From Streptomyces boluensis (GTDB lineage: Bacteria; Actinomycetota; Actinomycetes; Streptomycetales; Streptomycetaceae): a stretch of 41,576 bases of DNA. The stretch lies in assembly GCF_009908195.1 (NCBI RefSeq), contig NZ_JAAAHS010000020.1, positions 1 through 41,576 of the forward strand, in the 5' to 3' direction. Positions within the stretch are counted from its first letter, which is position 1, and the number at the start of each line of letters is the position of its first letter. Made by a program: the position numbers and the translations under genes. Of the stretch, positions 24,117 to 37,640 are shown piece after piece. Under the pieces are notes generated by a model. That model was not told the origin of the DNA, searched no databases, and saw nothing but the letters and a program-made list of their open reading frames with translations.

Positions 24117-24500
24117 CTACCGACAATTGCCCTGCTCGTCGACGACAGGCAGGGCACCGAGCCGGCGGCCGCGCATTGCGTGCTGGGCCTCGACGATCGG
24201 GGTCACGGGTGAGGTGAACGCCCCGCGGTTGTCGAGAATGTCGCGCAGCTGGACCCGGTCCGTGTACGCGGAGTCGTCATGGACGGCGATGAGCTGGGCA
24301 TGGGTGACCAGTCCGGTGCACAGGCCGTCGTTGTCGCAGATGAGCAGATGCTCGGTGCGGGCACTGGCCATGACGGCCAGGGCCACCTCGACGGTCATGT
24401 CGTCACAGACCTGCGGTCCGGCCGGATCCATGGTGTCGGCCACCGTCCTGTATACGGGGGTGGCTCCCGCCGGGCGGGGTTGCATCTGAGCCAGCGTCAA
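24117..24500 (-). CDS. CBS-domain pair protein, C-terminus probably lost
   Basis: A 127-residue protein with two CBS motifs: T-V-A-D-T-M-D-P-A-G-P and L-R-D-I-L-D-N-R-G, each followed by the M-A-S-A-R-T-E-H-L-L-I-C-D type strand. CBS pairs bind adenine nucleotides and sense energy state. The end (L-P-V-V-D-E-Q-G-N-C-R, then TAG) stops where the final strand and helix of CBS2 should continue, exactly at the border with IS debris, so truncation is likely. TTG at 24500 is chosen for GGAGG six bases upstream; ATG at 24485 is the alternative. It is 46 bp downstream of the DEAD helicase on the same strand. Confidence 0.72.
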   Translation of the reverse strand: MTLAQMQPRPAGATPVYRTVADTMDPAGPQVCDDMTVEVALAVMASARTEHLLICDNDGLCTGLVTHAQLIAVHDDSAYTDRVQLRDILDNRGAFTSPVTPIVEAQHAMRGRRLGALPVVDEQGNCR

Positions 24501-24546
24501 AAGGTGCCTCCTGCAGAGATGGGTCAGCTTCCAGATCACGCGGTGC

Positions 24547-26061
24547 TCAGGCCGCCGCGTCGAAGGCGGATCGCCGCGCGCTCGTGCGCCGGGCCGCCGA
24601 AGCGGGGCTGCGTCGGCCGCGGGGGGCCGCGCTGCGCTGGCGCCGCTCGGCCACCGGCGCGGTGATCGTCACGGGGATGCCGGAAGGGGCCTGGGCACCG
24701 GTGATCTGGCTGAGCGCTTCTTCGCCGGAGCGGACCTGGGTGGTCTGGGGGACGATGCCGGCGGTGGCCATGAGGCGGATCATATTGCGGCGCTGGTTGG
24801 GAGTGACCAGGGTGACGACACGGCCGGACTCGCCGGCCCGCGCGGTACGGCCGCCGCGGTGGAGGTAGTCCTTGTGGTCGGTCGGCGGGTCGACGTTGAC
24901 GACGAGGTCGAGGTTGTCGATGTGGATGCCGCGCGCCGCGACGTTCGTCGCGACGAGCACGGTGACGTGCCCGGTTTTGAACTGGGCCAGGGTGCGGGTG
25001 CGCTGCGGCTGCGACTTCCCGCCGTGCAGCGCGGCGGCCCGCACTCCGCTGTTCAGCAGGTCCTGGGTCAGCTGGTCCACGGCGTGCTTGGTGTCCAGGA
25101 ACATGATTACCCGGCCCTCGCGGGCCGCGATCTCCGTCGTCGTGCGGTGCTTGTCGGCGCCGTGGACGTGCAGGACGTGGTGTTCCATCGTGGTGACCGC
25201 GCCTGCGGACGGGTCGACGGAGTGCACGACGGGGTCGGTGAGGTAGCGGCGGACCAGGAGGTCGACGTTGCGGTCGAGGGTGGCGGAGAACAACATCCGC
25301 TGGCCCTCGGGACGGACCTGGTTCAGGAGCGCGGTGACCTGGGGCATGAAGCCCATGTCGGCCATCTGGTCGGCCTCGTCGAGGACGGTGATCGCGACTT
25401 GGTTCAGCCGGCAGTCACCCCGGTCGATGAGGTCCTTGAGGCGGCCCGGCGTCGCGACGACGACTTCGGCACCACCGCGCAGTGCACTGACCTGCCTGCG
25501 GATCGGCATTCCGCCGACAACTGTGGCAAGGCGCAGCCTCACCGAGCGGGCGTAGGGGGTAAGAGCGTCGGTCACCTGCTGTGCCAGCTCACGCGTCGGC
25601 ACAAGGATCAGGGCGAGCGGCCGGCCGGGCTCGGCACGCTGGTGGGCGGTGCGGGCCAGCAGGGCCAGGCCGAAGGCGAGGGTCTTGCCGGAGCCGGTGC
25701 GCCCGCGACCGAGGACGTCGCGGCCCGCGAGGGTGTTGGGCAGGGTCGCGCCCTGGATCGGAAACGGGGTCTTCATGCCTTGCGCGGTAAGCGAGGCCAG
25801 CATCGGCTCGGGCATGTCGAGGTCGGCGAACGCCTCGACGGCGGGCAGCGCCGGAGTGATCGTCTTCGGCAGGGCGAACTCACCCGACGCCGCCGCGGGC
25901 CGTCGGCCCTGGCCACCAGGGCGGCCCTGCCCTGCGGAACGCCTCGGGGCGGGCGAGCCGGAACGGCTGCTCCGGCGAGAATCGGCAACGGAGCCGAAAG
26001 CGGGACTTCCGGTACGGCCGCGGGTGCGGGAAGAGCGGTTGTTCGTACGTGAGGGGTTCAT
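24547..26061 (-). CDS. DEAD-box ATP-dependent RNA helicase
   Basis: A 504-residue RNA helicase. An Arg/Ser-rich tail (residues 1-60) precedes the core: Q-motif F-P-I-Q, motif I R-T-G-S-G-K-T, Ia P-T-R-E-L-A, Ib T-P-G-R, motif II D-E-A-D, motif III S-A-T, then domain 2 with A-R-G-I-H-I-D-N and H-R-G-G-R-T-A-R-A-G. The C-terminus is again basic, as in RNA-tethering tails. It lies downstream of a cspA-type gene with a hairpin and long leader between, fitting a cold-stress RNA-remodelling role. Start ATG has AAGGAAGG upstream. Confidence 0.93.
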   Translation of the reverse strand: MNPSRTNNRSSRTRGRTGSPAFGSVADSRRSSRSGSPAPRRSAGQGRPGGQGRRPAAASGEFALPKTITPALPAVEAFADLDMPEPMLASLTAQGMKTPFPIQGATLPNTLAGRDVLGRGRTGSGKTLAFGLALLARTAHQRAEPGRPLALILVPTRELAQQVTDALTPYARSVRLRLATVVGGMPIRRQVSALRGGAEVVVATPGRLKDLIDRGDCRLNQVAITVLDEADQMADMGFMPQVTALLNQVRPEGQRMLFSATLDRNVDLLVRRYLTDPVVHSVDPSAGAVTTMEHHVLHVHGADKHRTTTEIAAREGRVIMFLDTKHAVDQLTQDLLNSGVRAAALHGGKSQPQRTRTLAQFKTGHVTVLVATNVAARGIHIDNLDLVVNVDPPTDHKDYLHRGGRTARAGESGRVVTLVTPNQRRNMIRLMATAGIVPQTTQVRSGEEALSQITGAQAPSGIPVTITAPVAERRQRSAAPRGRRSPASAARRTSARRSAFDAAA

Positions 26062-26328
26062 TCAGAACCTTCCTTGATACGGCACGCATCAAAGAATTCT
26101 CGCAGCGGAAGAACAGCGCGGGGAACCCAAGAACGGACCGAATGGAATGGGAAAGCAGACCTGGCTTGCAGTGAATTCGATGCGTGTGCACAGGCGATGG
26201 AACGAGTGACGTCGCGCAGAGTGAAATCCAGGACAGGCGTCAACGGATGACGATTCAGAAGGCCCGCATTCCCGGAAAGGGGTCCCGGGCGGTGGTTCTG
26301 CAGGTGAAACCACAGGAAATGTCCGTAA
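26062..26328 (-). other. Long 5' leader of the DEAD helicase gene
   Basis: About 270 bp between the post-csp hairpin and the helicase start, with no coding gene. Cold-inducible helicases often have long structured leaders; only that analogy and the length support the idea here. No conserved cold box could be verified by eye. Confidence 0.35.
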
Positions 26329-26365
26329 CTGGGGCCCGCACCCCAAAAATGGATACGGGCCCCAG
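26329..26365 (-). terminator. Hairpin between csp and DEAD helicase
   Basis: CTGGGGCCCG (26329-26338) pairs perfectly with CGGGCCCCAG (26356-26365), a 10-bp stem, 20 bp after the cold-shock gene stop. It could terminate the csp mRNA or attenuate read-through into the helicase. Confidence 0.6.
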
Positions 26366-26385
26366 CTACGAAGTATGCGTCGGCG

Positions 26386-26589
26386 TCAGACCGGAACGAT
26401 GTTCTCGGCCGTCGGGCCCTTCTGGCCCTGCACGATGTCGAAGGTGACCTTCTGGCCTTCCAGTAGCTCACGGAAGCCCTGGGTGGCGATGTTCGAGAAG
26501 TGGGCGAACACGTCGGCGCCGCCACCGTCCTGCTCGATGAAACCGAAACCCTTGGCCGCGTTGAACCACTTCACAGTGCCAGACGCCAT
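26386..26589 (-). CDS. csp: Cold shock protein (CspA family)
   Basis: A 67-residue single cold-shock domain that binds single-stranded RNA/DNA as a chaperone. RNP1 is K-G-F-G-F-I and RNP2 V-F-A-H-F-S; it starts [10 protein letters not shown], the actinobacterial CspA signature. The AAAGGAG ribosome binding site is strong. The preceding untranslated region exceeds 200 bp, as is usual for cold-shock genes. Neighbours are a DEAD helicase downstream and a MerR regulator upstream on the same strand. Confidence 0.97.
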
Positions 26590-26932
26590 GTCATATCTCC
26601 TTTGGGGCAGTACGCCGGGGCCCGCAATCCACGGATACCGGGTCGCCGAGATGATGCCCGCCCGGAGAATGACCGGAAATGCAAAACGCTTCCTGCGGCA
26701 GGGGATGCCGACGTTGGCGTTGAAGTTTTTGGGAACCATGACTGCAACTGAGGTCGACAGTAGCATGCGGTAGCGGCCTGCGTACGGCCAATAATTCCAC
26801 TCTGTTCGTCGCGGTAAACACACTGCTCGCGCGGCACATTAAACTCTCGTCTCGCGGTAACAGATATTTATCCACCCGGAACGCGGCGTTCGAGGAGCGC
26901 GGTCGCTGCCCGTGGCTGGACGGCGAGACGCC
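26590..26932 (-). other. Intergenic region with csp leader
   Basis: 343 bp between the MerR stop and the csp start, more AT-rich than its surroundings around 26770-26880. It probably holds the csp promoter and leader RNA. I could not fix a promoter with correct spacing, and no gene was recognised. Confidence 0.4.
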
Positions 26933-27271
26933 TCAGTCCGTGGTCGTCGGCTTCTCCGATTCGGCGGCGCGGCGGTATTCGGCGTTGATGCGCTGCGCTT
27001 CTTCGAGCTGATCCTCGAGGATGATGATGCGGCAGGCAGCCTCGATGGGGGTGCCCTGGTCGACGAGTTCCCGGGCGCGGGCGGCGATGCGCAGCTGGTA
27101 GCGGGAGTAGCGCCGGTGTCCGCCCTCGGAACGCAGCGGGGTGATCAGGCGGGCTTCGCCGATGGCGCGGAGGAAACCCTGGGTGGTGCCGAGCATGTCG
27201 GCGGCCCGGCCCATCGTGTAGGCGGGGTAGTCGTCGTCATCGAGACGCCCGAACGAATCGTCTGCTGTCAT
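26933..27271 (-). CDS. MerR-type helix-turn-helix regulator
   Basis: A 112-residue DNA-binding protein. The winged helix reads Y-T-M-G-R-A-A-D-M-L-G-T-T-Q, F-L-R-A-I-G-E-A-R-L-I-T-P and G-G-H-R-R-Y-S-R-Y, the diagnostic MerR pattern. A short dimerisation coiled coil (I-L-E-D-Q-L-E-E-A-Q) follows, and there is no effector domain, as in HspR/BldC-like small members. The ATG at 27271 has AGAGAGG upstream; open frame further upstream runs through a palindrome and is not coding. Expression appears to be governed by an unusually long leader and hairpin. The targets may include the neighbouring csp/helicase genes (inference). Confidence 0.88.
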   Translation of the reverse strand: MTADDSFGRLDDDDYPAYTMGRAADMLGTTQGFLRAIGEARLITPLRSEGGHRRYSRYQLRIAARARELVDQGTPIEAACRIIILEDQLEEAQRINAEYRRAAESEKPTTTD

Positions 27272-27297
27272 TTGCACCTCTCTGTGGAACGCGTCGA

Positions 27298-27329
27298 GGG
27301 GCCCGGGTGCCGTACGGCACCCGGGCCCC
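27298..27329 (-). terminator. 32-bp perfect palindrome before MerR gene (attenuator)
   Basis: Sixteen-base arms (GGGGCCCGGGTGCCGT in 27298-27313 and its exact complement in 27314-27329) make a perfect GC-rich hairpin ending 26 bp upstream of the MerR ATG and before its ribosome binding site. Its position suits a leader terminator or attenuator better than an operator, though a protein-binding role is not excluded. Confidence 0.65.
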
Positions 27330-27540
27330 GAAGGAACTGCTACACCATCTGCCGGCCCTGATACGGCGCCGGCGCTCCGTTTCCGCTGGCCCGAACTGGA
27401 AGCTGTCGGGACTGCGGGGATCGCGGTTGCTTGACCGGAGACCACCTCACTATCGATGTCCTGCGGTACCCGGGCTCAAGACCTCTACCCGGGCGATCCT
27501 GATGGCGACTGGTTCCTCCGTTTCTTTCCTCTGGGGTCCA

Positions 27541-27885
27541 TCACTTACCTACTGCTGGTACTGCTGGTGATGCGAACCGCTCAGTGACCTGCGGTAGCGC
27601 CACTCTCCGACAGCCAGCCCCGTCGCCCATCCTGCGTCTGCTCCGGCTTAGAACCCCACTGTCGAACTTCCCGGTGCGCGCGTCCGCAGCCGACGCCTTC
27701 ACCGAGGTGCTGCTCACTTACTTCACTGCTGGATCCCGCGAACTGCACTTGCGGGTACTGCCACTGCGGTACTACTCACGGCGCCCCTGATCACTGCGGG
27801 CCACCCGGTCCGGTCGCCAGTCCCGTCGCCGTCCTGCAACAACCCTGGCTTCGAAACTCCACCACCGCACCGTCCTGCGAACTGC
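27541..27885. repeat. Imperfect tandem repeats inside the leader
   Basis: Unit B (27541-27665) and unit A (27714-27870) share, in the same order, TCACTTAC-C/T-T, ACTGCTGG, GCGAAC-T/C-GC, GCCAG-T/C-CCCGTCGCC, then TCCTGC and a GGCTT-C/A-GAA block. A third partial copy of GCGAACTGC with GTACTGC lies at 27877-27893. Offsets between blocks range from 166 to 203 bp, so the units have diverged by indels. Confidence 0.6.
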
Positions 27886-27893
27886 GTACTGCT

Positions 27894-27918
27894 GCCCGGC
27901 AGTTCATCCCTGCCGGGC
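27894..27918 (-). other. Hairpin at the 5' end of the leader
   Basis: GCCCGGCAG (27894-27902) and CTGCCGGGC (27910-27918) form a perfect 9-bp stem with a 7-base loop. It starts about 19 nt after the predicted transcription start and may protect the 5' end or form part of the RNA's folded core. Confidence 0.55.
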
Positions 27919-27943
27919 TTACTTGATCTCGGCTACGAGAGAA

Positions 27944-27972
27944 ACCATAACCACACCACCACCCAATGTCTA
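27944..27972 (-). promoter_or_regulatory. Sigma-70-like promoter for the leader/MerR transcript
   Basis: On the minus strand TAGACA (27972-27967) and TATGGT (27949-27944) are separated by exactly 17 bp. The first matches TTGACA at five of six positions. A start near 27937 is predicted. Confidence 0.55.
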
Positions 27973-27998
27973 CTCCGGCCGCCATAGATTTTCGTGAG

Positions 27999-28298
27999 TC
28001 AGACTGAGAGATAGTCGACCTCGACCACTGAACAGATGCGCCGTGGTCCCTCTCCAGCCAGCTCGCCATCTCTGACCAGCGCCGCTATGCAGCCTCGACG
28101 CCGCGAACACCATGGCGGCAGCACCTGCAGCCTGGATGACTCGTACTGCCGCAGTGGGTGGAACAACGCGGGCAATGTCGCGAGCCGGTCATCAGCCGAA
28201 TCGGCCCCGGACAAGAGCGGTCCCAGTTGCGACGCGACCTCCATCAACCGATCCCGCTTCTCGACGGCGGTGGCGATGCGGGCCAGGCACCTGTGCAC
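27999..28298 (-). CDS. Doubtful hypothetical ORF
   Basis: A 99-residue frame starting at a GTG without a ribosome binding site. Codon use is partly GC3-rich and the first half (V-E-K-R-D-R-L-M-E-V-A-S-Q-L-G) looks helical, but no domain is recognised and the end is Arg/Cys-rich. It may be a fragment of a lost gene in this decayed region. It lies upstream of the leader promoter. Confidence 0.25.
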   Translation of the reverse strand: MHRCLARIATAVEKRDRLMEVASQLGPLLSGADSADDRLATLPALFHPLRQYESSRLQVLPPWCSRRRGCIAALVRDGELAGEGPRRICSVVEVDYLSV

Positions 28299-28407
28299 CG
28301 GCCTGGGTGATAAAGCCGAGACCCGCAGCGGCGACGGCAGGTGTACTCAGGTGGGCGGCTGCCTGATGCGGCGCGGTAGTAGCGACCGGTTTGCTGGATG
28401 GCCGCGT

Positions 28408-28640
28408 TCACACAGTGCGGGTGACCGTGACGAGGACGGTGACCGGTGTCGTTGTTCCGTCCTGGGCCAGGTAGGCGCTGATGGCGGTGCGGACGCGTTA
28501 GCGGACCTGCTGGGCAACATCCAGGACGCGGCGGTCCTCATGCACGACGCAGCGTGCTTCTACGTGCCAGCCGCCTTCGGGCGTGGGTTCGGCCCGGATG
28601 CCGCCCTCGCGGGGAAGATGAAGAAGCACAACTGGAGTAC
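28408..28640 (-). pseudogene. Asp23/Gls24-like protein fragment with in-frame stop
   Basis: On the minus strand the frame reads H-V-E-A-R-C-V-V-H-E-D-R-R-V-L-D-V-A-Q-Q, then R-V-R-T-A-I-S-A-Y-L and P-V-T-V-L-V-T-V-T before TGA at 28408. This alternating strand-helix pattern resembles alkaline-shock (Asp23/Gls24) envelope-stress proteins. A TAA at 28498-28500 interrupts it, and the 5' end is lost at the boundary with the next gene's stop (28646). It is therefore a broken remnant; assignment to the family is moderate. Confidence 0.45.
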
Positions 28641-28645
28641 TGAGC

Positions 28646-30682
28646 TCACAGGCTCGTGGGCCTTTCGAGGGCTTGCAGCGTCCCCCCGGGTAGCCGGTCG
28701 TTGCCCCAGCTGCGCTCGATGTAGCCGGTGATCCGCGCGACGTCTTCGGCGGGCACCCGCTCCGGTTCGCCGTGCTCGAGCGGGTCGGAGTGGAAGATGT
28801 AGAGCCGCGAGGCGAACTGGTCGAAAGGCAGTGAGGCCTCTCCGAACCGCTCGCCGTTGCCCGCGGTGGAGACGACGACGCCGTCGCCCCAGTCCTGGCC
28901 GCTGTCGTTGTTCGGGTTGAAGAAGTACACCCGCATGACGTCCTGCGGATCCGGCGCGACCCGCAGAATCGTGATCGCGTGCCAGCCGACATAGCGTGCC
29001 GCGCTGTCGGTCACGGCGACGCCGGCCGGCTGCGGATGGATCAGCGGCTGCTCGCCGTTGTACGACGGGTGGTAGCTGGCGTGGAACTGCCGCAGGAACT
29101 CGTCGAGGTCGACCAGGTTCCCGGTCGCGACGTCCACGTTGATGTGGAACCCACGGCCCGTCCACCAGCCGTGGAACTCGGGGTTGACCCACCGGTGCGG
29201 GTCCCCCGGCCGCTCGGCGCAGCGCCGTCCCATCTCGGCGTAGATCCGGTCCAGGTGGGGCACCACGAGCAGCGAGACGGGGTCCAGGTCCAGCGGCAGC
29301 GTGCTCGCGACTCCGCTCACGCTGTCCTTCGACGAGATCGGCCGGCCCTCGAAGTGCATGAGGATCTCGTCGTCGCGGGCGGCCCAGACCACGACTTGCA
29401 GCAGGTAGTCCGGGTCGTTGTAGGCCCACATCGACAGCGCGCGGGCCGACTGGCAGGTGGGGTTGTCGCCCTGACCGACGCCGAGCGGCAGGCCCAGCAT
29501 CGAGAGCACCCCCGCAACAAGGCGTGCCCGCGGCCCCGGCGTCTCGCCGAAGACCGTGGTCAGCCGCTCGTGCGCCACCGGGGAGAGTTCGAGCGCCAGT
29601 TGGCGCCAGAGCGCGGGCACCACCGGCGGCTCGTAGAGGATGCCGCGGTCGAGCAGCAGCGCGAGACCGTAGATGCACTGCGCGGTCTGCGGGTGCACGG
29701 CCACCTCGATCAGCCGGTGCACCAACTGGCTGTAGCGCAGCAGGCAGTTGCGGCCGGTGTCGGAGAGACCGAGCGCCTCACCGACGAGGTAGAGGTGCTC
29801 GCTCTCGCTGAGCAGGAACCGGAGCAGTTCCGCGTGGTACGGCGACACCAGGCCGGTGTCGTGCATCGCCCGCGCGAACCCCGTCGCCTCGTACTGCAGG
29901 CCGCCGGCGTCCATCGCCTCGAGCCGGGAGCGGAAGACGTCGATGCCCGGGTCCTCCCGGCACGCCTCGGTGGTCCCGTACAGGCTCGAGATGAGCCGGT
30001 CGATGCCCTGCCCCGACGACACTCCGAGAGCGACGTCCGGGCTGTTGCGGTAGATCGCGATCCGGGTGATCAGGGACTGCGCCGCCTCGACCTGGATCGG
30101 ACGCTGGCGCAGGATCCGCCAGATCTCGTCGACCAGGTCGTCCAGGACGCTGTCGTAACCGATCTCCTCGGCGAGGTGGCGGAACAGGGCGCGGACGAGC
30201 TGTGCGGTACGGCCCTGCTGGACTCGCTCTGCCTCGCTGGGCGCGCTGAACAGCAGCTCCAGGTTCTTCGCCAGTACCTGGGACAGGAACTGGCGGGCGT
30301 CCTCGGCGGGGAACGTCGGGTGCGCGAAGTCGCCGCGGGCGACCGCGAGCATCCGCAGCTCGCTGGTCGCCTCCATGACGACGGTGTCCGCGTCTCCGCT
30401 GTGCAGGCTCCCGCTGACCAGCGCCGGTACGAGGATCTCCGGTGACGCCCAGTCCGTCCCCTGGAAGAGGCCGGCTTCCTCGAGGGCCTGCGCCCTGGCC
30501 TGCACCGCCGCGGCACCGCCCGGCTGTATGAGTACCCGGCGCAGTGCTTCCAGGACCCGCCGCAGCTTCGTGTGCTTGCCGAAGTCGCGGGTTTCGGCCA
30601 TGGCCTGGATGGCGTCGTCGAGTGAGGTCACGCGCTTGTCCAGCGTCGCGGCCTCACCGCTGACGTCGACGGTCGGTTTCAA
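28646..30682 (-). CDS. Unrecognised large protein with papain-like C-terminal half, partner of ATP-grasp enzyme
   Basis: A 678-residue soluble protein; no signal peptide or membrane helix. I do not recognise the family. Residues 1-390 are helical and Leu-rich, like a repeat or scaffold. The second half has a papain-like order: Gln404-x5-Cys410 (Q-G-D-N-P-T-C-Q-S-A), His568 in G-W-H-A-I-T-I and Asn589 in Y-F-F-N-P-N-N. The Q-x5-C spacing equals that of papain's oxyanion Gln and nucleophile. It might be a peptidase, transglutaminase or acyltransferase. The gene follows the ATP-grasp gene closely. TTG at 30682 has GAGGG six bases upstream; GTG at 30715 is the alternative and leaves a 7-bp gap to the ATP-grasp stop. 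Activity is inferred from motif order only. Confidence 0.7.
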   Translation of the reverse strand: MKPTVDVSGEAATLDKRVTSLDDAIQAMAETRDFGKHTKLRRVLEALRRVLIQPGGAAAVQARAQALEEAGLFQGTDWASPEILVPALVSGSLHSGDADTVVMEATSELRMLAVARGDFAHPTFPAEDARQFLSQVLAKNLELLFSAPSEAERVQQGRTAQLVRALFRHLAEEIGYDSVLDDLVDEIWRILRQRPIQVEAAQSLITRIAIYRNSPDVALGVSSGQGIDRLISSLYGTTEACREDPGIDVFRSRLEAMDAGGLQYEATGFARAMHDTGLVSPYHAELLRFLLSESEHLYLVGEALGLSDTGRNCLLRYSQLVHRLIEVAVHPQTAQCIYGLALLLDRGILYEPPVVPALWRQLALELSPVAHERLTTVFGETPGPRARLVAGVLSMLGLPLGVGQGDNPTCQSARALSMWAYNDPDYLLQVVVWAARDDEILMHFEGRPISSKDSVSGVASTLPLDLDPVSLLVVPHLDRIYAEMGRRCAERPGDPHRWVNPEFHGWWTGRGFHINVDVATGNLVDLDEFLRQFHASYHPSYNGEQPLIHPQPAGVAVTDSAARYVGWHAITILRVAPDPQDVMRVYFFNPNNDSGQDWGDGVVVSTAGNGERFGEASLPFDQFASRLYIFHSDPLEHGEPERVPAEDVARITGYIERSWGNDRLPGGTLQALERPTSL

Positions 30683-30722
30683 AGGTTTTCCCTCGGGTTG
30701 GCCTCCCGCGTCCACGAGTTCG

Positions 30723-31964
30723 TCAGACGTAGAAGTCGAGCTCTTCCTGCTTCTTCAACAGGTCGCGCATGCGGTAGGGGTCTTCACCGAAGAAGTACAC
30801 CAGGCCCCAATGGGTGCCGAACGCGGTCCTCTTGGTGACGGTCTCCTCGAGCGGTGTCGAGAGGTCGTGCGACTCGTAGTAGTCGTCGTCCTCGGTCTCC
30901 TCCGGGATCTCCAGTTCGCTGACGACGCGGCGGCGCGGGTAGACACCGAAGCAGCCGGCGATCCCGGACGCGTCGACGACCTCGCGCGGGAAGAAGGCGT
31001 CGATCTCCTCCTCGGTCGTCTTCGGGTCGAAGGCCAGCACCAGCGCCTGGTACGCGTTGAAGCCGTATGCCCGCTCAAGCAGCTCGAACACCTTGAACCC
31101 CGGGGGCCGGTACGCGACTTCGCCGAAGTACATCTCGCCGTCACTCGTGACGAAATACTCGGGGTGCACGAAGCCGAACTCGATGTCGAACGTCTTGATG
31201 AGTTTCTCGATCTGCGCCGTGATCTGCGGGCGGTAGCGCTCCAGTTCCGGGGTCGCCGGCACGAACACCGAGTATCCCAGCGTGACGTATTCGGAGATGT
31301 TGAGGAACTTGATCTTCCCGTTGTGCACCCACGCCTCGACCGCGAACTCCCAGCCGTCGAGGTGGGATTCCATGAGAACGGGGAACTCCTCCTCCGGAAT
31401 CATGTCGATCTCGTCCGGGGTACGGATGACGCGGTGCCCGAGGCATCCCGCCTTGTCGAACGCCTTGAGGTGGATCGGGTCGTTCGGGTCACCGTCCAGC
31501 TTGAGCAGTGTCTGATTGACACGCTTGAGGAAGCGGATCACGTCGTCCCGGTCGTGGGCCTCCTCGAAGATTCCGACCCGGATACCACCGAGTTGAGCGC
31601 GGCGCTTCATCAGCGCCTTGTCCCGCAGCAGCATGGCCTGACCGTACAAGCGCGGGTTGTCAAGGAGAACGGAGTTGATCGCCCCTGCCCATTCAACCGT
31701 CTCCTCGTACAGCGGGATCGCGACGTCGACACCCGCGTCCTTGAGAGTCTCGGCGATCTCCATGGAGCGGTCGTTGAGCCGTTCGAAATTCCATGGCACG
31801 TAGGGGATTTCGTGATCGACGCAGTACTTCTCGGCCCACTCCGGGGCCACGACGACGTATCGCCGGTCGAACCGGTCTAGGGCTTCCACCGCATTGAGAC
31901 TCCAGCCAAGAAGCGCTACATAGCCCTTGTCGGGGTTCTTGGTGGCCGGTTCGCCTTGTGTCAT
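30723..31964 (-). CDS. ATP-grasp ligase of carboxylate-amine type
   Basis: A 413-residue cytoplasmic enzyme. An N-terminal Rossmann-like region (G-Y-V-A-L-L-G-W-S-L-N) precedes the ATP-grasp fold: L-L-R-D-K-A-L-M-K, the lid-loop-like H-L-K-A-F-D-K-A-G-C-L-G, E-F-A-V-E-A-W-V-H-N-G and the metal-binding strand F-G-E-V-A-Y-R-P-P-G. This matches carbamoyl-phosphate-synthase-like L-amino-acid ligases, which activate a carboxylate as acyl phosphate and join it to an amine. AAGGAG precedes the ATG. The tail contains an unusual acidic stretch E-E-T-E-D-D-D-Y-Y. It forms a two-gene unit with the papain-like protein, so ligation followed by amidase or transfer chemistry is plausible. Substrates are unknown. 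Confidence 0.85.
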   Translation of the reverse strand: MTQGEPATKNPDKGYVALLGWSLNAVEALDRFDRRYVVVAPEWAEKYCVDHEIPYVPWNFERLNDRSMEIAETLKDAGVDVAIPLYEETVEWAGAINSVLLDNPRLYGQAMLLRDKALMKRRAQLGGIRVGIFEEAHDRDDVIRFLKRVNQTLLKLDGDPNDPIHLKAFDKAGCLGHRVIRTPDEIDMIPEEEFPVLMESHLDGWEFAVEAWVHNGKIKFLNISEYVTLGYSVFVPATPELERYRPQITAQIEKLIKTFDIEFGFVHPEYFVTSDGEMYFGEVAYRPPGFKVFELLERAYGFNAYQALVLAFDPKTTEEEIDAFFPREVVDASGIAGCFGVYPRRRVVSELEIPEETEDDDYYESHDLSTPLEETVTKRTAFGTHWGLVYFFGEDPYRMRDLLKKQEELDFYV

Positions 31965-32369
31965 AGGCCGTTCTCCTTCGCGTGTGCGCTCATCGACGGC
32001 GTGGCTGGCACGCCAGTGCCCGGCGGCTGCCGCGCAAGCACCTCCTGCCCGCCCGCAAGCACCTCATTCCCGCGCGCTGGGACGGAGACGGCACGGCAAC
32101 CTTCGACCGCCTGCGCAGCATGGCCGTGTAAGGGGCCGACGCCCGCGCCCTCATCACACGCGCCATCGAAGCCCTCACCCAACCGGTTCCCGAAGCCTGA
32201 GCCAGGAAGCTCTTGCACTCCAATTCCATTAGCTGAGCGGCCACTTCACCCGCTCACCGGCCGATGCCCGACCACCGGAGAGTGGGGGCAGGCATTGGCC
32301 CCGCAGTCGAGAGCACGGGTATCGCGGCCCTGCGGCCGGGCGGTTTTGAAGGTGCGCGCCCCGGTGTAC
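31965..32369. other. Intergenic stretch upstream of the ATP-grasp gene
   Basis: About 400 bp with no intact gene. A short plus-strand frame around 32070-32201 (ending I-T-R-A-I-E-A-L-T-Q-P-V-P-E-A, with a TAA inside at about 32128) looks like a gene remnant that I cannot name. A promoter for the two-gene unit should lie here but was not fixed by eye. Confidence 0.4.
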
Positions 32370-32630
32370 TGGAGGCCGAGGCCAAGCGGCGCACCTGGTG
32401 CTGCGAGTGCACCTGCCACTGCGTGACGAAACCGGCCTGGCCCCCGAGGTGGCCGCCGCCCTCGACGCGAGCGAGGGCCGGGCCCTGCGCAGCGCCACTT
32501 CGGTGGCCACCGTGTCCCAGTCGATGGCGCACCGGCTCGTGGCCGAGCACGGGCTACGGCTCGACGCCGTGCACGTCGCCGTCCCCGGCGTACGGATCGC
32601 GGACACTGCGACAGGATCGGCCCCCGCCCT
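32370..32630 (+). pseudogene. Glycosyltransferase family 4 fragment
   Basis: The frame through GTG 32398 reads H-L-P-L-R-D-E-T-G-L-A-P-E-V-A-A-A-L-D, R-S-A-T-S-V-A-T-V-S-Q and L-D-A-V-H-V-A-V-P-G-V, the inter-domain region of actinobacterial GT4 enzymes. The N-terminal domain and the nucleotide-sugar-binding C-terminal domain are absent. A dead fragment, convergent with the DUF2267 gene. Confidence 0.6.
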
Positions 32631-32656
32631 CCCCCGACATCAGGTACGGCCTCCAC

Positions 32657-33049
32657 TCACATCGGGTCGGTGCATCCGAACAACCCGGCATGTCCCGGGG
32701 GGAGTTGGGTGAGGATGCGACGCAGGAGGGCGTCGTCGGTGATCGCGGCGAGGGCGGCGAGGACGGCGTCGACCGCTCGCCTGGCCTCGTCGAGTTCAGC
32801 ACGGCTCAGTTGGGCCACCGCTTCGATGAATCCTGTGGGGGTGAGGGGTTCGCCGGCCGGTTCGGTCACGGTCAGCAAGGGGCCGCATTGCGCGGGGAGC
32901 AGGCGGGCGAGGTCGGTGCGGTCGTCGCCGACCAGGTGGGCGCCGAGGACCTCGAGAACGTTCTGCACGGCTCGGGCCGCCTCCTGAGAGACCTGGTAGC
33001 CCGCGCGTTCTGAGACCTGGGCGAGGAAGGCGTCCAAGGTCAGATCCAT
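32657..33049 (-). CDS. DUF2267 protein
   Basis: A 130-residue all-helical protein beginning MDLTLDAFLAQVSERAGYQV. The first helix with E-A-A-R-A-V-Q-N-V-L-E-V-L and the following L-V-G-D-D-R-T-D-L-A-R-L-L-P match DUF2267, a stress-associated family of unknown biochemistry often next to hemerythrin, CBS and PRC genes. The AAGGAG site five bases before the ATG fixes the start; upstream open frame is low complexity. It lies 121 bp downstream of the hemerythrin gene on the same strand and they may be cotranscribed. Confidence 0.82.
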   Translation of the reverse strand: MDLTLDAFLAQVSERAGYQVSQEAARAVQNVLEVLGAHLVGDDRTDLARLLPAQCGPLLTVTEPAGEPLTPTGFIEAVAQLSRAELDEARRAVDAVLAALAAITDDALLRRILTQLPPGHAGLFGCTDPM

Positions 33050-33170
33050 GGCGACTCCTTGTGGATGCGATGGGTACGCCGGGGCAGTACGGGCCACTCC
33101 CCGCCAGGTGGCGGTACGACGACGGAGCGTCCGGGCGTGCGCGCAGGTGCGTGCGGGGTGTGGCGTGCGG

Positions 33171-33668
33171 TCATGCCGGCACTCCGGCCTGGAGCAGACG
33201 TCGTACGGCATCGACGCTGCCGCACCCCGCACGCAGCATGCGGCAGCGCGCCTTCGCGAAATCCTCGGCGAGTTCCGCTCGCCGGGCGCAACTGAACCGC
33301 GTACAGGCCAGGTTGAGAAGGTTTCGCTCGGTTTCGTCGCAATGGCGATGGGTGGCCGTGGCCATGTGCTGAAGTCGCCACTCCCATTCGGCCGAGCCGA
33401 TCTCCCGCACTTCGATGAGGGCGAGCAACACCTTGACGGCTTCCGCGTGTTCGGCCTCGATGCGCACGAAGGCGCCGGTGTCCGCGTGGGGGCTGAGCGC
33501 GGACAGCAGGACGCTGTGCTCAGCCTCTCCGTGCGCGATCAGCAGGTCCGTGAAGTCGTGGAGAGCCTTCTTCCGGTCGGCTTCCACACTGCGCATCAGG
33601 CGCAGCAGGTCCTCCATCGTGCGGTGGTCGTCGAGGACCAGCTCGACGACGTCCTCTGGCGGCATCAT
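33171..33668 (-). CDS. Hemerythrin-like HHE domain protein
   Basis: A 165-residue four-helix bundle. The di-iron ligand pattern is visible: D-D-H-R-T-M-E in helix 1, H-G-E-A-E-H in helix 2, E-A-E-H-A-E-A in helix 3 and H-R-H-C-D-E-T-E-R in helix 4. Such proteins bind oxygen or respond to oxidative and nitrosative stress. The C-terminal ~45 residues contain three Cys (T-R-F-S-C-A-R-R, A-R-C-R-M, A-G-C-G-S) that could be redox-active. AGGAGG precedes tandem ATG codons; the first is used. Confidence 0.88.
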   Translation of the reverse strand: MMPPEDVVELVLDDHRTMEDLLRLMRSVEADRKKALHDFTDLLIAHGEAEHSVLLSALSPHADTGAFVRIEAEHAEAVKVLLALIEVREIGSAEWEWRLQHMATATHRHCDETERNLLNLACTRFSCARRAELAEDFAKARCRMLRAGCGSVDAVRRLLQAGVPA

Positions 33669-33997
33669 GTCGGTGCGCCTCCTGCCTGAAGTGAGTTCGC
33701 ACCCCGCTACCCGATCCGCCCAAGAATCACGCCCCGGGTGACCCGAATGCCGATCTCCCCAGTTCAGACCGCCGCCAGGAGCAACATCGCACCTCCCGGC
33801 ATCGTCCAGCAGGCCGACGGCCACGTCGGCGATCGGCCGCACCGGTGTCGAGCCCCGCCAGTAACACAGTGTTGGCAGGCCAGCGAGGTTCTTATACGGA
33901 CAGTCAAGTCACGGGAATGTCACGAGCGTTCGTGGGTAGCAGCCTGCCCACGACGCGCTCCCAGCCAGGGGGCGCACTTCTCGTTTCGGGAGTGACG

Positions 33998-34897
33998 ATG
34001 GCGACCGCAATCTCCAGCAATCCCGGCTCCATGAGCTCGTACGCGGAGCGACATACCACCGGTCCGGACGCCGCTCGGGCGGACGTGCCGGGCCTGGAGG
34101 GCCTTGCGCCCCTTCCCGACTCCCAGAGCATCAACGGGCCCGATGCCCGCGCTCTGTCCAAGACGCTCTTCGCCCGCCTCGACGAGCTCGAAGAGGGCAC
34201 TCCGGAGCACTCCTACGTACGCAACTGCCTGGTCGAGTACAACCTCGCGCTCGTCCACTACGCCGTTGGGCGCATGAACGTGCGCAACGAGTCCTACGAG
34301 GACGTGCTGCAGGTCGGCACCATCGGGCTGATCAAAGCCATCGACCGCTTCCAGGTGCAGCGCGGGACCGAGTTCCCCACCTTCGCCATGCCGACCATCT
34401 TCGGCGAGATCAAGCGGTTCTACCGCGACACCACCTGGTCCGTGCACGTCCCGCGCCGCCTGCAGGAACTGCGCATCGACCTGTCCAGGGCCACCGCCCA
34501 ACTCGAGCAGACCCACGGCCGGACGCCGACCGTGCGCGAACTCGCCGAGCGCCTGCACCTGGACGAGGACGACGTCGTCGAAGGGCTGATCGCCGCCAAC
34601 GGCTACACCGCCGTCTCCCTGGACTATCCGAACGACGCCGCGTCCCCGGAAGACACCCTGGCTGAACACTTCGGCTACCTGGACGACGGCCTGGAAAAGG
34701 TCGAGGACCTGCACTCCCTCAAACCCCTCATCGCCGCCCTCCCCGAGCGCGACCGCAAGATCCTCGCGCTGCGCTACGCCGAGGACAAGACGCAGAGCGC
34801 GATCGGCCGCGAGCTCGGCATCTCCCAGATGCACGTCTCCCGCATCCTCAAGCGCCTCCTGAACCGGCTCGGCGCCCAACTCACCGCGCAGCACTGA
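33998..34897 (+). CDS. SigB/SigF-type RNA polymerase sigma factor
   Basis: A 299-residue group-3 sigma factor. Region 2 has D-V-L-Q-V-G-T-I-G-L-I-K-A-I-D-R-F and F-P-T-F-A-M-P-T-I-F-G-E-I-K-R-F-Y-R-D, the SigB/F signature. Region 3 has P-R-R-L-Q-E-L-R, and region 4 the helix-turn-helix K-T-Q-S-A-I-G-R-E-L-G-I-S-Q-M-H-V-S-R. ATG at 33998 follows GGGAG with five-base spacing; upstream in-frame starts add unconserved residues. No anti-sigma factor is adjacent, but a STAS antagonist lies convergent downstream. It probably directs osmotic or general stress genes. Confidence 0.93.
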   Translation: MATAISSNPGSMSSYAERHTTGPDAARADVPGLEGLAPLPDSQSINGPDARALSKTLFARLDELEEGTPEHSYVRNCLVEYNLALVHYAVGRMNVRNESYEDVLQVGTIGLIKAIDRFQVQRGTEFPTFAMPTIFGEIKRFYRDTTWSVHVPRRLQELRIDLSRATAQLEQTHGRTPTVRELAERLHLDEDDVVEGLIAANGYTAVSLDYPNDAASPEDTLAEHFGYLDDGLEKVEDLHSLKPLIAALPERDRKILALRYAEDKTQSAIGRELGISQMHVSRILKRLLNRLGAQLTAQH

Positions 34898-34931
34898 CCG
34901 TTACAACGAACCTCCTCAGCGGCGGACAAGT

Positions 34932-34967
34932 GGCCCTGGCACGGACGCCCCGCGCCGTGCCAGGGCC
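34932..34967. terminator. Hairpin terminator between sigma factor and STAS gene
   Basis: GGCCCTGGCACGG (34932-34944) pairs perfectly with CCGTGCCAGGGCC (34955-34967): 13-bp stem, 10-base loop, 35 bp after the sigma stop and 47 bp beyond the convergent STAS stop. Confidence 0.8.
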
Positions 34968-35013
34968 GGCGCGCGGCCGGTTCGGTGGCGGGGGCCTCGC
35001 CGTCGTGACCGCG

Positions 35014-35487
35014 CTATGGGCCTTCTTCAGCTTCGTACGCTCGCTCATCAGGCAGGTATGTCCTGGGCTGTACACGGGAGTTGGTGTGTTCTGAGTGCGG
35101 GGCGGGGGGCCATGTCGGGCGGCTGGCCTCGGGCAGCTGCGCCAGCGCCTGAGAGACGCTCGGGTAGGCGGGCAGCAGGGCACTGCTGCCGGTCTGCGCG
35201 AGCAGTTCGGCAAGGCGCTGGCCTGCCCCGGCCAACAGGAGCTTGCCGTCGCGGCGTTGGAGTAACCAGCGTGTGGCGAGCAAGCAGTTCAGCCCCCGAG
35301 AGTCGCAGAAGGTCAAAGGGGTCACGTCGAGGACCAGGTGCTGGTGACCGGTGTTGATACTGGTCCCGACGGCTGCCAGGAAGTAGCTCTCGCAGCTCTG
35401 GTCCAGCTCTCCTTTGGCGCGCAGAACCGAAGTGTCGTCGCAGCTGGCGATCGTGCTGATGGTCAGTCGAGGGTTCTGCCGGGACAT
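35014..35487 (-). CDS. STAS-domain anti-sigma factor antagonist
   Basis: A 157-residue protein of the SpoIIAA/RsbV type. Strand L-V-L-D-V-T-P-L-T-F-C-D precedes D-S-R-G-L-N-C-L-L, where Ser63 is the usual phosphorylation site of an anti-sigma kinase. The family is normally ~110 residues; the extra C-terminal tail (from about residue 120, Pro-rich and then acidic) is unusual. When unphosphorylated it should release a sigma factor by binding the anti-sigma kinase. The convergent SigB-like gene is an obvious candidate target, though this is inferred. ATG 35487 is used; a GTG immediately precedes it. Confidence 0.88.
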   Translation of the reverse strand: MSRQNPRLTISTIASCDDTSVLRAKGELDQSCESYFLAAVGTSINTGHQHLVLDVTPLTFCDSRGLNCLLATRWLLQRRDGKLLLAGAGQRLAELLAQTGSSALLPAYPSVSQALAQLPEASRPTWPPAPHSEHTNSRVQPRTYLPDERAYEAEEGP

Positions 35488-35633
35488 CACACCTCACCTT
35501 CCTGGGGCCATTCGCACGCCGCGTCGCAGCGGCTCGTGGTCAGGGATCGGGCAGCCGGAAGTTGACGGGGCCCCGCCGCGGACTTCAAGGCCAGTCGATC
35601 GCTTCTTGCACAGCCGTGCGCGGTGACACCCTT

Positions 35634-36068
35634 ATGGATGAGCCTGCCCAGGATGCGCCCGGGCAGCGGATAGGGATGAGATTCCTCGTCGAGTTCGAAC
35701 GCTCCGTGGAGCGGTGGGGCAATGCCCTGTGGGAGACGCTGATCCCGCCCTCACGCAAACAAGCGGAGGTCGTCGCGAAGCTGCGCAATGAATGTGACGA
35801 CCGGGCCTTGATCCTCGACCGGCAGCGCACCCTGGTGCCCAACGCCTTCGTCGTCCAGCTGCCACCCGACGCGCACCGCCAACTCATTGCCTGCAGCGGC
35901 CAGTTGGGGAGGCAACTGGCCACCCAGATCCGAAGACACGCCGCGGAACAGGGATACACCTTCGCCGGCCCCGTGGTCGTCCACCTGACCGGAACGCCTG
36001 GCGCGGGCGTAGGCCGATTTCGCATCCACAGCCGCATCGCTCCCCTCCAGCGGCGCACCGGTTCCTGA
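35634..36068 (+). CDS. Stand-alone DUF3662 (FhaA N-terminal-like) protein
   Basis: A 144-residue protein matching the N-terminal domain of FhaA: F-E-R-S-V-E-R-W, the L-R-N-E-C-D-D-R-A segment, R-T-L-V-P-N-A-F-V-V-Q-L, C-S-G-Q-L-G and Q-G-Y-T-F-A-G-P-V-V-V-H-L. In FhaA this domain precedes a phosphothreonine-binding FHA domain and works with Ser/Thr kinases at the cell wall. Here the protein ends after it, with no FHA domain encoded downstream. It could be a decoy or partner of FhaA. ATG 35634 lacks a clear ribosome binding site; ATG 35676 is an alternative with GGATAGGG directly before it. Confidence 0.72.
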   Translation: MDEPAQDAPGQRIGMRFLVEFERSVERWGNALWETLIPPSRKQAEVVAKLRNECDDRALILDRQRTLVPNAFVVQLPPDAHRQLIACSGQLGRQLATQIRRHAAEQGYTFAGPVVVHLTGTPGAGVGRFRIHSRIAPLQRRTGS

Positions 36069-36258
36069 AGTTCCTGTCGAGCAGGGGCGCGGGGCAGTGA
36101 AGAAGTAGCGGCCGCGCGGGCCGGCCCACCAGCATCGCCCGCCACAACTGACGGCGGGAGCAGCGGCGGTGCCCGCCCTGCGAACGGAGGGCGTGATCAG
36201 GCAGTGTGCTCGGTTCGCCGGGGAGCGCCACGGGTGCACGCTGCTTGGAATCCTTGGC

Positions 36259-36639
36259 ATGTCGAAGCGTGACGGACTGCTCGTCGATCTCGCCTCCAGG
36301 GTCGAGTCCGCGCAGAGCACGCAGATGTCCCTGACCGTGGCCACCGGGGCGCGGTCATCACCGGCCGGCAGGCGCCCCAGGCGGTCTGGCGGCAGCGGCC
36401 CCGGAGGTCCTGATGGACTCGGAGCGGCTCCGGCCGTTCGCGACCGCCTTCGCCTCGCGAGAAGCGCGGGAAGTGGCGGCCGCAGGCGTTCCGGCACGGT
36501 GCCCACACACCTGCATTTCCACGTCGCGCGGATCCTGCAGGGCGGCATGGGCATCCCCGGGACGGGTGGGATGTACCGGGTCGACATCGCGGAAGTCAAC
36601 GCGTGGACCGTCGGCGACTTCAGCTACTCCGACCGCTGA
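36259..36639 (+). pseudogene. Multiply frameshifted gene, possibly GvpU-like
   Basis: Protein-like segments follow each other in changing frames: R-D-G-L-L-V-D-L-A-S-R-V then S-L-T-V-A-T-G, then G-A-V-I-T-G-R-Q-A-P-Q-A-V-W-R, then E-V-L-M-D-S-E-R-L-R-P-F-A-T-A-F, then T-H-L-H-F-H-V-A-R-I-L-Q-G and A-W-T-V-G-D-F-S-Y. One missing base near 36349, one near 36398 and one near 36500 would restore a single frame of about 128 residues. From memory the pattern recalls GvpU-type gas-vesicle accessory proteins, but I am unsure. It is inactive as read unless the sequence has errors. Confidence 0.5.
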
Positions 36640-36794
36640 CCGGCTGCTCAAGCAGCGCCGTCCGTCAGGCCCACTGGCCGCAGCGCCTCTGCGCGGTCGT
36701 GCGGGCTGAGTACGACGAGCATCTGAAGCAGCTGCGCGGCTTCCTGCACGGTTTCGGCACCGCTGGAGGGCCGGCGTATTCCGCTCCCCGCGTC

Positions 36795-36968
36795 TCACCG
36801 AATCGGGCGGTGGCGCCTGCCGGAACTCCGCAGGTGCAGAGCGAGGTGAACCAGGGCTGCGACGAACACCACGATGCCGATGAGCAGCACGTAGAACAGT
36901 CCTTCGGCGACGGCGCCTATGAGGCCCAGCACGATCGCGGCGATGACGAGGATCAGGAAGAGCATCAT
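36795..36968 (-). CDS. Small hydrophobic membrane protein
   Basis: A 57-residue protein with two predicted transmembrane helices (M-M-L-F-L-I-L-V-I-A-A-I-V-L and L-F-Y-V-L-L-I-G-I-V-V-F-V-A-A) and a basic tail H-L-R-S-S-G-R-R-H-R. AGGAGG lies about ten bases before tandem ATG codons. It is 26 bp downstream of the PRC-barrel gene on the same strand. Small proteins of this kind are common in streptomycete stress clusters; function unknown. Confidence 0.72.
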   Translation of the reverse strand: MMLFLILVIAAIVLGLIGAVAEGLFYVLLIGIVVFVAALVHLALHLRSSGRRHRPIR

Positions 36969-36994
36969 GGCTCGGGCACCTCCTGGGGTCGGGC

Positions 36995-37351
36995 TCAGCG
37001 ACGGGCGAGCTGCCGCTCGCCATTGGCCCCGGGCTGGTAGGGCATGCCGTAGTGCGCGAAGACCGCGGCCTCGTCCTCGGCGGGCAGAACATCGTCCGTA
37101 CCGATCGGCGGGCACTTCTTCACCAGCGACTTTTCGTAATCGACCCTGACGTACCCAGGCCCCGCTATTGCGTCGTTCAGCGGGACGAAGACCAGGTGGC
37201 GGCGGGTGGGCAGTCCGACCTCGACGGTGGCCATGGCCGGGTCGTCGGTGCTGGTGTCCACGTAGATCGCCTCGAGCACGCCGATCTTGTGACCCCTCGA
37301 ATCGACGACGTCATGGTTGCGCCACTCCCGGATGTCCGCCATCTCGATCAT
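36995..37351 (-). CDS. PRC-barrel domain protein
   Basis: A 118-residue soluble protein. D-I-R-E-W-R-N-H-D-V-V-D-S-R-G-H-K-I-G-V-L is the characteristic first PRC-barrel strand-turn, followed by A-T-V-E-V-G-L-P and H-L-V-F-V-P-L-N-D-A. Such proteins bind RNA-processing or photosynthetic partners; in streptomycetes they accompany stress genes. AAGGAGG six bases before the ATG at 37351 fixes the start. It is probably cotranscribed with the small membrane protein downstream. Confidence 0.87.
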   Translation of the reverse strand: MIEMADIREWRNHDVVDSRGHKIGVLEAIYVDTSTDDPAMATVEVGLPTRRHLVFVPLNDAIAGPGYVRVDYEKSLVKKCPPIGTDDVLPAEDEAAVFAHYGMPYQPGANGERQLARR

Positions 37352-37374
37352 CCTGGGCCTCCTTCGCGCGGCAG

Positions 37375-37640
37375 TACGGACCGGTGTCATTCCAGGATGC
37401 TCTTGGAGCCACCCCGAGGCCACCGTGATCAGCAGCGATGACGGATCGAGCGTGAACCAGCACGGAACCTGGAAATGCGGAACGACCTCCGTGACGAGCC
37501 CGGACACCTCCCGCCAGAGCGTGGCCAACTCGCACTGCCGGTCCACCAGCGCGCCGATCCGCTCCTGTACGCGGAGCGTCCGTCCGGCTACACGGTGCGC
37601 TTCCCGGATCGCCCCAGAAATCTGGTGTTCCCGGCCCGGT
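37375..37640 (-). pseudogene. Fragment of a GAF/LuxR-type regulator N-terminus
   Basis: Upstream of the PRC gene and in its frame, the minus strand reads I-R-E-A-H-R-V-A-G-R-T-L-R, then L-W-R-E-V-S-G-L-V, V-P-C-W-F-T-L-D-P-S-S-L-L-I and G-W-L-Q-E-H-P-G. This resembles the start of streptomycete GAF-like LuxR regulators that begin with a substrate-sensing domain. The rest of the gene, including any DNA-binding domain, is absent. Frame sharing with PRC is coincidental because PRC has its own ribosome binding site. Confidence 0.45.

Follow-up and report, generated by a model that had tools for sequence, protein, structure and literature searches.

Why does a gene for an ATP-grasp ligase in Streptomyces boluensis stand directly beside a gene for a large protein without a family name, and what may the two products do together? 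The pair lies in the window, i.e. the whole analysed stretch of 41,576 nucleotides (contig NZ_JAAAHS010000020.1, positions 1 to 41,576 of the forward strand, assembly GCF_009908195.1) from a genome of 8.2 Mb. Both genes, and all window features located below, are on the minus strand. The ligase gene comes first (an open reading frame, ORF, of 413 residues, 30723..31964). It is followed by the gene of the large protein (28646..30715), which has 689 residues if translation begins at a GTG or 678 residues if it begins at TTG codon 12. Between the two genes lie 7 bp if the GTG is used and 40 bp if translation begins at the TTG, which has GAGGGA 6 nt upstream. Both ORFs are supported as coding by their codon bias (G+C content of third codon positions, GC3: large ORF 0.92, ATP-grasp ORF 0.87). 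The original prediction, made from the letters of this stretch, had described two adjacent ORFs on one strand separated by 7-40 bp, and the coordinates and strand are as it had them. The locus is a compact pair of an ATP-grasp gene and a gene for an unnamed papain-like protein.

The two genes form a unit with strict co-occurrence. They stand side by side in 82 of 83 sources (the window, 80 loci from a scan of species genomes, and the loci L027 and L029; L027 and L093 are one sequence). In the remaining source, L062, the contig ends inside the ATP-grasp gene, part of which is kept. When the ATP-grasp gene was searched separately in 297 Streptomycetaceae genomes at an expectation value (E) of 1e-60, it was found in exactly the 8 genomes that have the large protein. 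In the genus of G345 (Nocardia group; 93 genomes, E 1e-50) both genes were present in the same 29 genomes. The co-occurrence that the original prediction had named as a check is thus seen in two separate groups. The distances of the two proteins correlate with r of 0.80 (permuted maximum 0.25, 0 of 1000 as high), as is also expected of any two genes inherited together.

The first gene was proposed from the outset to encode a carboxylate-amine-type ATP-grasp enzyme. PF13535 (ATP-grasp_4) matches the window ligase with 24.4 bits, less than the Pfam cut-off of 27, and all 32 chosen ligase homologues at E 0.01 or better (best E 5.1e-6). The best solved structure by sequence is the L-amino acid ligase 4wd3 (E 0.006), and a second L-amino acid ligase, 3vot, is matched at E 0.076; the profile of the 32 homologues found nothing in the PDB at E 0.001. 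Conservation was examined in an alignment of 79 rows (the window and 78 loci), with 78 sequences that differ from one another; it lacks 4 of the 80 loci from the scan. Lys155, Lys167, Glu206, Glu269, Glu282 and Arg286 of the ligase are invariant in 79/79 rows. The strand motif E282-V-A-Y-R286-P-P-G289 (31098..31121) is aligned with GEIAMRIGG of 4wd3, and its residues E282, A284, R286 and G289, which we take to be the catalytic positions of the ATP-grasp strand motif, are likewise invariant in 79/79 rows. Judged by sequence, the protein resembles L-amino-acid ligases.

The large protein is less easily placed, since no family in Pfam (at E up to 10), NCBIfam, PADLOC or the PDB was matched by it; for either window protein no PADLOC model was found up to E 1. 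Its 57 homologues gave stray Pfam matches only (best E 0.015), to 9 families in all up to E 1, and neither PF00648 (calpain C2) nor PF14399 (BtrH_N) is among these families. The best PDB match of the profile of these homologues has E 0.079, and PHROGs gave two weakly matched families of unknown function (E 0.018 and 0.069). The candidate catalytic residues Gln415, Cys421, His579 and Asn600 are invariant in 79/79 rows of the alignment as well as in all 57 chosen homologues, down to 49% identity. These are Gln404, Cys410, His568 and Asn589 of the original prediction, whose numbers are 11 lower because they were counted from the TTG start; they are present in the order given there, and their conservation among homologues, set as a test beforehand, is complete. 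The Gln-x5-Cys spacing noted then reads QGDNPTC (29453..29473), with the predicted oxyanion Gln415 and with the predicted nucleophile Cys421 at the start of a helix. From the model and the alignment, His579 (28979..28981) in a beta strand is the predicted catalytic base, and Asn600 (28916..28918), just past the next strand and 21 residues from His579, is the predicted third catalytic residue. Cys421 is the sole invariant cysteine of the protein, the other four being variable among the aligned homologues. Invariant columns make up 109/281 of residues 380-660 and 62/355 of residues 25-379.

The AlphaFold2 model of the full-length protein (mean predicted local distance difference test score, pLDDT, of 79.1; predicted template modelling score, pTM, of 0.72) is helical to about residue 450 and mixed after it according to DSSP. 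An all-helical N-terminal region (residues 18-380; 29576..30664) is seen in this model, as had been expected for the N-terminal half. The papain-like domain (residues 383-650; 28766..29569) is supported by the calpain-core rows of VIA-align. In both the full and the domain models Cys421 opens a helix, His579 is within a strand and Asn600 comes after the following strand. When the full model was compared with the PDB by VIA-align, calpain cores took the first 18 rows (Z 8.8 to 7.3, residues 374-650), the match to 3bow_A having Z 8.8 with 209 aligned residues and a root-mean-square deviation of 4.4; a staphopain row is found at Z 6.9. Of 50 rows listed for the domain-only model, 49 belong to papain-like proteins, with the Mug105 row presumed to be one of them. 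The motif spacing was compared with that of two bacterial calpain homologues, whose His and Asn were chosen by eye; a third (L113) was excluded as a fragment ending before both residues. All three proteins have Gln at -6 from Cys, the Cys-to-His spacing is 158 in the large protein versus 156 and 161, and the His-to-Asn spacing is 21 versus 18 and 17. Spacing and secondary structure are thus compatible with Cys, His and Asn lying near one another. A papain-like fold of the C-terminal domain, nearest to calpain cores, is therefore moderately supported by the models, in line with the fold first suggested. The large protein would be the first member of a new family of papain-like enzymes.

Several results weigh against this picture. 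In the full-model list unrelated helical rows (Z 7.2 to 7.0) come straight after the calpains. The best Z of the domain-only model is just 5.6, and the five domain models diverge, with mean pLDDT from 79.5 to 59.0. With neither model did Foldseek match a PDB entry at an E of 0.001 or better, and a comparison with viral models gave nothing with E at or below 0.001. The loop 416-419 ahead of Cys421 has pLDDT under 50. No profile alignment of the large protein was obtained with the three bacterial calpains or with ten of the thirteen BtrH-like loci, and for calpain a reversed-profile control outscored the true profile; the likeness to calpains is therefore drawn from the spacing of the motifs and from the fold rows. 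As to the pairing, G822 has, in addition to a normal pair, a second intact copy of the large-protein gene with no ATP-grasp gene in the 12.5 kb fetched.

How widely is the pair distributed? In the genome searches just the 2 to 12 best first-look candidates per genome were scored. The family search with the large protein (297 Streptomycetaceae genomes, E 0.001) gave 10 matches, 8 of them real including the window's own; G052 and G290 were rejected as short chance matches (that of G052 covers 75 residues, and at E 0.1 nothing was matched in the G290 locus). The phylum search (396 genomes) gave 7 matches, of which 4 are full-length including the own one; short matches in other proteins of G052, G574 and G678 were removed before counting. 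A profile of the C-terminal domain, run on 386 phylum genomes with up to 6 candidates per genome scored, found the same 4 and one stray match, G555, set aside as a short match in another protein. The scan of 84,980 species genomes yielded at least 588 relatives of the large protein in 592 stretches, and the best 80 of these were fetched as loci. These best 80 are actinobacterial (Streptomyces, Saccharopolyspora, Amycolatopsis, Pseudonocardia, Actinophytocola, Haloechinothrix, Williamsia, Nocardia, Rhodococcus and its kin, and mycobacteria) apart from five in Gammaproteobacteria. In the tree the rows closest to the large protein of the window are from Streptomyces. Carriage by viruses, phages or plasmids was considered and rejected: no relative was found in viral contigs or in phage records, and a single one lies in a replicon filed as plasmid, the 1.83-Mb replicon of Halomonas sp. 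PA16-9.

Three loci are unusual. The pair of L029 (G572) diverges more than any other that was found, its large protein being 49% and its ligase about 76% identical; its genes overlap, and it is a good entry point to remoter relatives. The second copy in G822 (L148:5095-7179) is 67% identical, keeps the catalytic residues and adjoins an ORF of 1036 residues and an ORF resembling a transporter. In Streptomyces daqingensis a fragment of the large protein of ~117 residues (88% identical; L037:20166-21158) lies on the opposite strand ~8 kb from the intact pair, and is perhaps a decayed duplicate.

Do the two genes depend on others nearby? When 1527 neighbouring ORFs from 83 loci (flanks up to 10 kb) were clustered, just the pair was common to most loci. 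Each of its clusters was found in 82 loci, the misses being artefacts of ORF calling. The next clusters, read as an ABC-type ATPase and a short-chain dehydrogenase, occur in 24 and 21 loci, where neither their strand nor their position is constant, and no conserved third gene is present in these flanks. Within 1 kb of the pair no small ORF (precursor peptide or carrier gene) is common to several genera; where ORFs do recur in these 1-kb flanks, they are ordinary longer genes, few in number and each common to just two genera. Among 12 Streptomyces loci 9 of the 66 pairs of loci share any neighbour cluster, and one shares more than 3. In four relatives with left-flank matches the similarity ends at or before window position 28107, and the 20 kb fetched do not show the right flank in its place; in one of these four, window 36239-36634 is matched over 399 bp at another point of the stretch. 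The scant sharing of neighbours and the flank breaks mean that the cassette is accessory and placed at different sites, and the occurrence in 8/297 family genomes together with the loss of left-flank similarity by position 28107 bears out the accessory segment proposed earlier. The lack of a conserved third gene at these differing sites points to a self-contained cassette. ORFs of the window between 24117-37546 carry CBS, DEAD-helicase, MerR, DUF2267, hemerythrin, STAS, FhaA_N and PRC-barrel domains, and we interpret this part as an accessory region of stress type. The pair in about nine Nocardia loci, L093 among them, is located between apparent rmlC/rmlA and rmlB genes of dTDP (deoxythymidine diphosphate)-rhamnose synthesis, the names being our reading of the clusters.

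Averaged over 28 pairs from eight Streptomyces sequences, the ratio of nonsynonymous to synonymous substitution rates (dN/dS) comes to 0.07 in the ligase and 0.23 in the large protein, and judging by these sequences the cassette is under purifying selection. Over the 79 rows the mean identity is 85.5% for the ligase and 73.3% for the large protein. Between groups chosen by us, the ligase identity is 86.5% for gammaproteobacterial versus Streptomyces sequences (60 pairs; five versus twelve sequences) and 84.5% for Nocardia versus Streptomyces (168 pairs); the large protein of the same gammaproteobacterial and Nocardia groups is 67.4% and 69.7% identical to that of Streptomyces. Such short distances suggest that the pair was transferred between phyla. 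The five gammaproteobacterial rows form one side of a branch with support 99. A transfer specifically from Actinomycetota to Gammaproteobacteria was not retained, because the root of the tree is unsure owing to the very long branch of L029.

What may such a cassette do? In the reading that we prefer, and to which we give a little less than an even chance, it is a self-contained system of two enzymes with a single substrate in the cytosol. The ligase would make an amide bond, which the papain-like enzyme would cleave or transfer via a thioester at Cys421. The ATP-grasp enzyme of L-amino-acid-ligase type would activate a carboxylate as acyl phosphate and then join it to an amine. Cys421, His579 and Asn600 of the large protein, placed in a papain-like pocket, would form a thioester with the same amide or acyl group, and this would then be hydrolysed, making a write-erase pair, or passed to another amine. 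The helical N-terminal region probably binds its partner or the substrate, a role that we infer. The acyl phosphate and thioester chemistry follows from the enzyme families and the shared substrate from the co-occurrence of the genes. Since the cassette has no third gene, the substrate would be one already present in the host and would come from the cell itself. The cytosolic location is suggested by the lack of a hydrophobic segment (best 19-residue hydropathy of the two proteins 1.32 and 0.96). A write-erase pair seems to us preferable to one-way transfer. The features shared with calpains speak for a cut of peptidase type rather than for a transfer of the BtrH kind, without settling it. In the original prediction the pair was a peptide or metabolite modification system using ligation and thiol acyl transfer; the pair itself and the invariant residues are borne out and the fold moderately so, ligation and thiol acyl transfer would be the putative chemistry, and the nearby peptide-substrate gene found no support, no such gene being common to several genera in the 1-kb flanks. 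Going further, we tentatively entertain a minimal mobile conjugation system, a proposal that is more probably wrong than right. In it a molecule or protein of the cell that is widely conserved would receive an amino acid or a small carboxylate from the ATP-grasp enzyme, and this addition would be removed or relocated by calpain-like thiol enzymes of an as yet unnamed family with a helical recognition region; such a system would need no dedicated tag gene and would have spread between phyla with little sequence change. The ligase identity between the five gammaproteobacterial and the twelve Streptomyces sequences points to a tightly constrained substrate common to these cells. As there are two genes only, one knock-out or reconstitution could reveal the function.

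Four other explanations were weighed. The order of action might be reversed, so that a protein or peptide of the cell is first cleaved by the papain-like enzyme and the carboxylate exposed in this way is then used by the ATP-grasp enzyme for ligation. The calpain-type spacing and motifs suit a genuine peptidase, the long helical region might serve to bind a target protein, and the absence of a strongly hydrophobic segment from either protein fits as well; but the ATP-grasp enzyme resembles ligases of free amino acids and its gene stands first, and we find this order unlikely. Somewhat less likely still is a one-way acyl transfer as in BtrJ/BtrH, where the ligase would build an aminoacyl unit and the papain-like enzyme would pass it to a small-molecule amine. 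The precedent is BtrH, described in PMC10318531 as an acyl carrier protein:aminoglycoside acyltransferase among papain-like proteins. Against it stand the lack of BtrH_N matches in the 57 members, the lack of a carrier-protein or other gene conserved beside the pair, and the fold rows, which favour calpain cores.

The remaining two explanations appear improbable to about the same degree. In one of them the ATP-grasp product is a small regulator or inhibitor of the partner protease, the latter being an effector of a stress or conflict response. ATP-grasp enzymes do help to make protease inhibitors of E-64 type in fungi, according to PMC12568646, and the window neighbours with CBS, DUF2267, hemerythrin, STAS and PRC-barrel domains can be read as stress-type. 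Such a role is hard to reconcile with the absence of a third gene (e.g. for a reactive warhead) conserved alongside, with a ligase at least 76% identical to that of the window in all 31 compared, which is unlike an arms race, and with the failure of any PADLOC model or phage record to match. In the other one the ligase makes a dipeptide or amino-acid amide as a solute under salt or drought stress, and the papain-like enzyme turns it over. The resemblance to dipeptide ligases is in favour of this, and so are Haloechinothrix, Chromohalobacter, Aidingimonas, Halomonas, Marinimicrobium and Oceanimonas, whose saline or marine origin is suggested by their names only; but Nocardia, Amycolatopsis and other genera are carriers too, and there is no conserved third gene nearby.

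A keyword search of the literature brought up no earlier description of the pair that we could recognise, a nameless pair being hard to find by words. In the excerpts seen, PMC4431377 and PMC12419801 contain nothing about it, and PMC10318531 contains no such ATP-grasp pairing, its lone mention of ATP-grasp being the title of a 2009 survey; in PMC10318531 calpains and BtrH fall into a single cluster within the papain-like proteins. PMC2922099 mentions larger operons in which genes for peptide synthesis are accompanied by a new papain-like family, a paralogue of methionyl-tRNA synthetase and a cupin. According to PMC4631099 calpains are rare in bacteria and occur in 3/30 Streptomyces species. 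At least 588 stretches in the scanned species genomes encode a relative of the unnamed large protein, and in each of the fetched loci (the best 80) apart from the truncated L062 the same ligase stands next to it.

Among known systems, the L-amino acid ligases 4wd3 and 3vot share with the window ligase the ATP-grasp character and, for 4wd3, the aligned strand E-[IV]-A-x-R-x-x-G, but the similarity is weak, as the E values given above demonstrate. To our knowledge these ligases have no fixed pairing with a papain-like gene. The calpain core (C2, PF00648) is alike in Gln at -6, the Cys-to-His spacing, the HA and NP motifs and the best structural rows, and differs in its N-terminal region and in giving neither a PF00648 match among the 57 members nor a profile alignment. 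Butirosin synthesis employs BtrJ, an ATP-grasp ligase. BtrJ and BtrH are like the window pair in combining a ligase with a papain-like thiol enzyme; they differ in that the window pair has no BtrH_N match, no carrier gene and just two genes. Glutathionylspermidine synthetase/amidase couples an ATP-grasp activity that makes an amide to a papain-like activity that hydrolyses one. There the two activities are fused, whereas the window pair consists of separate genes, with no such Pfam family in either protein. In its general logic the pair is like the amidoligase systems in which, as Iyer and others reportedly described in 2009, an ATP-grasp ligase has a papain-like partner.

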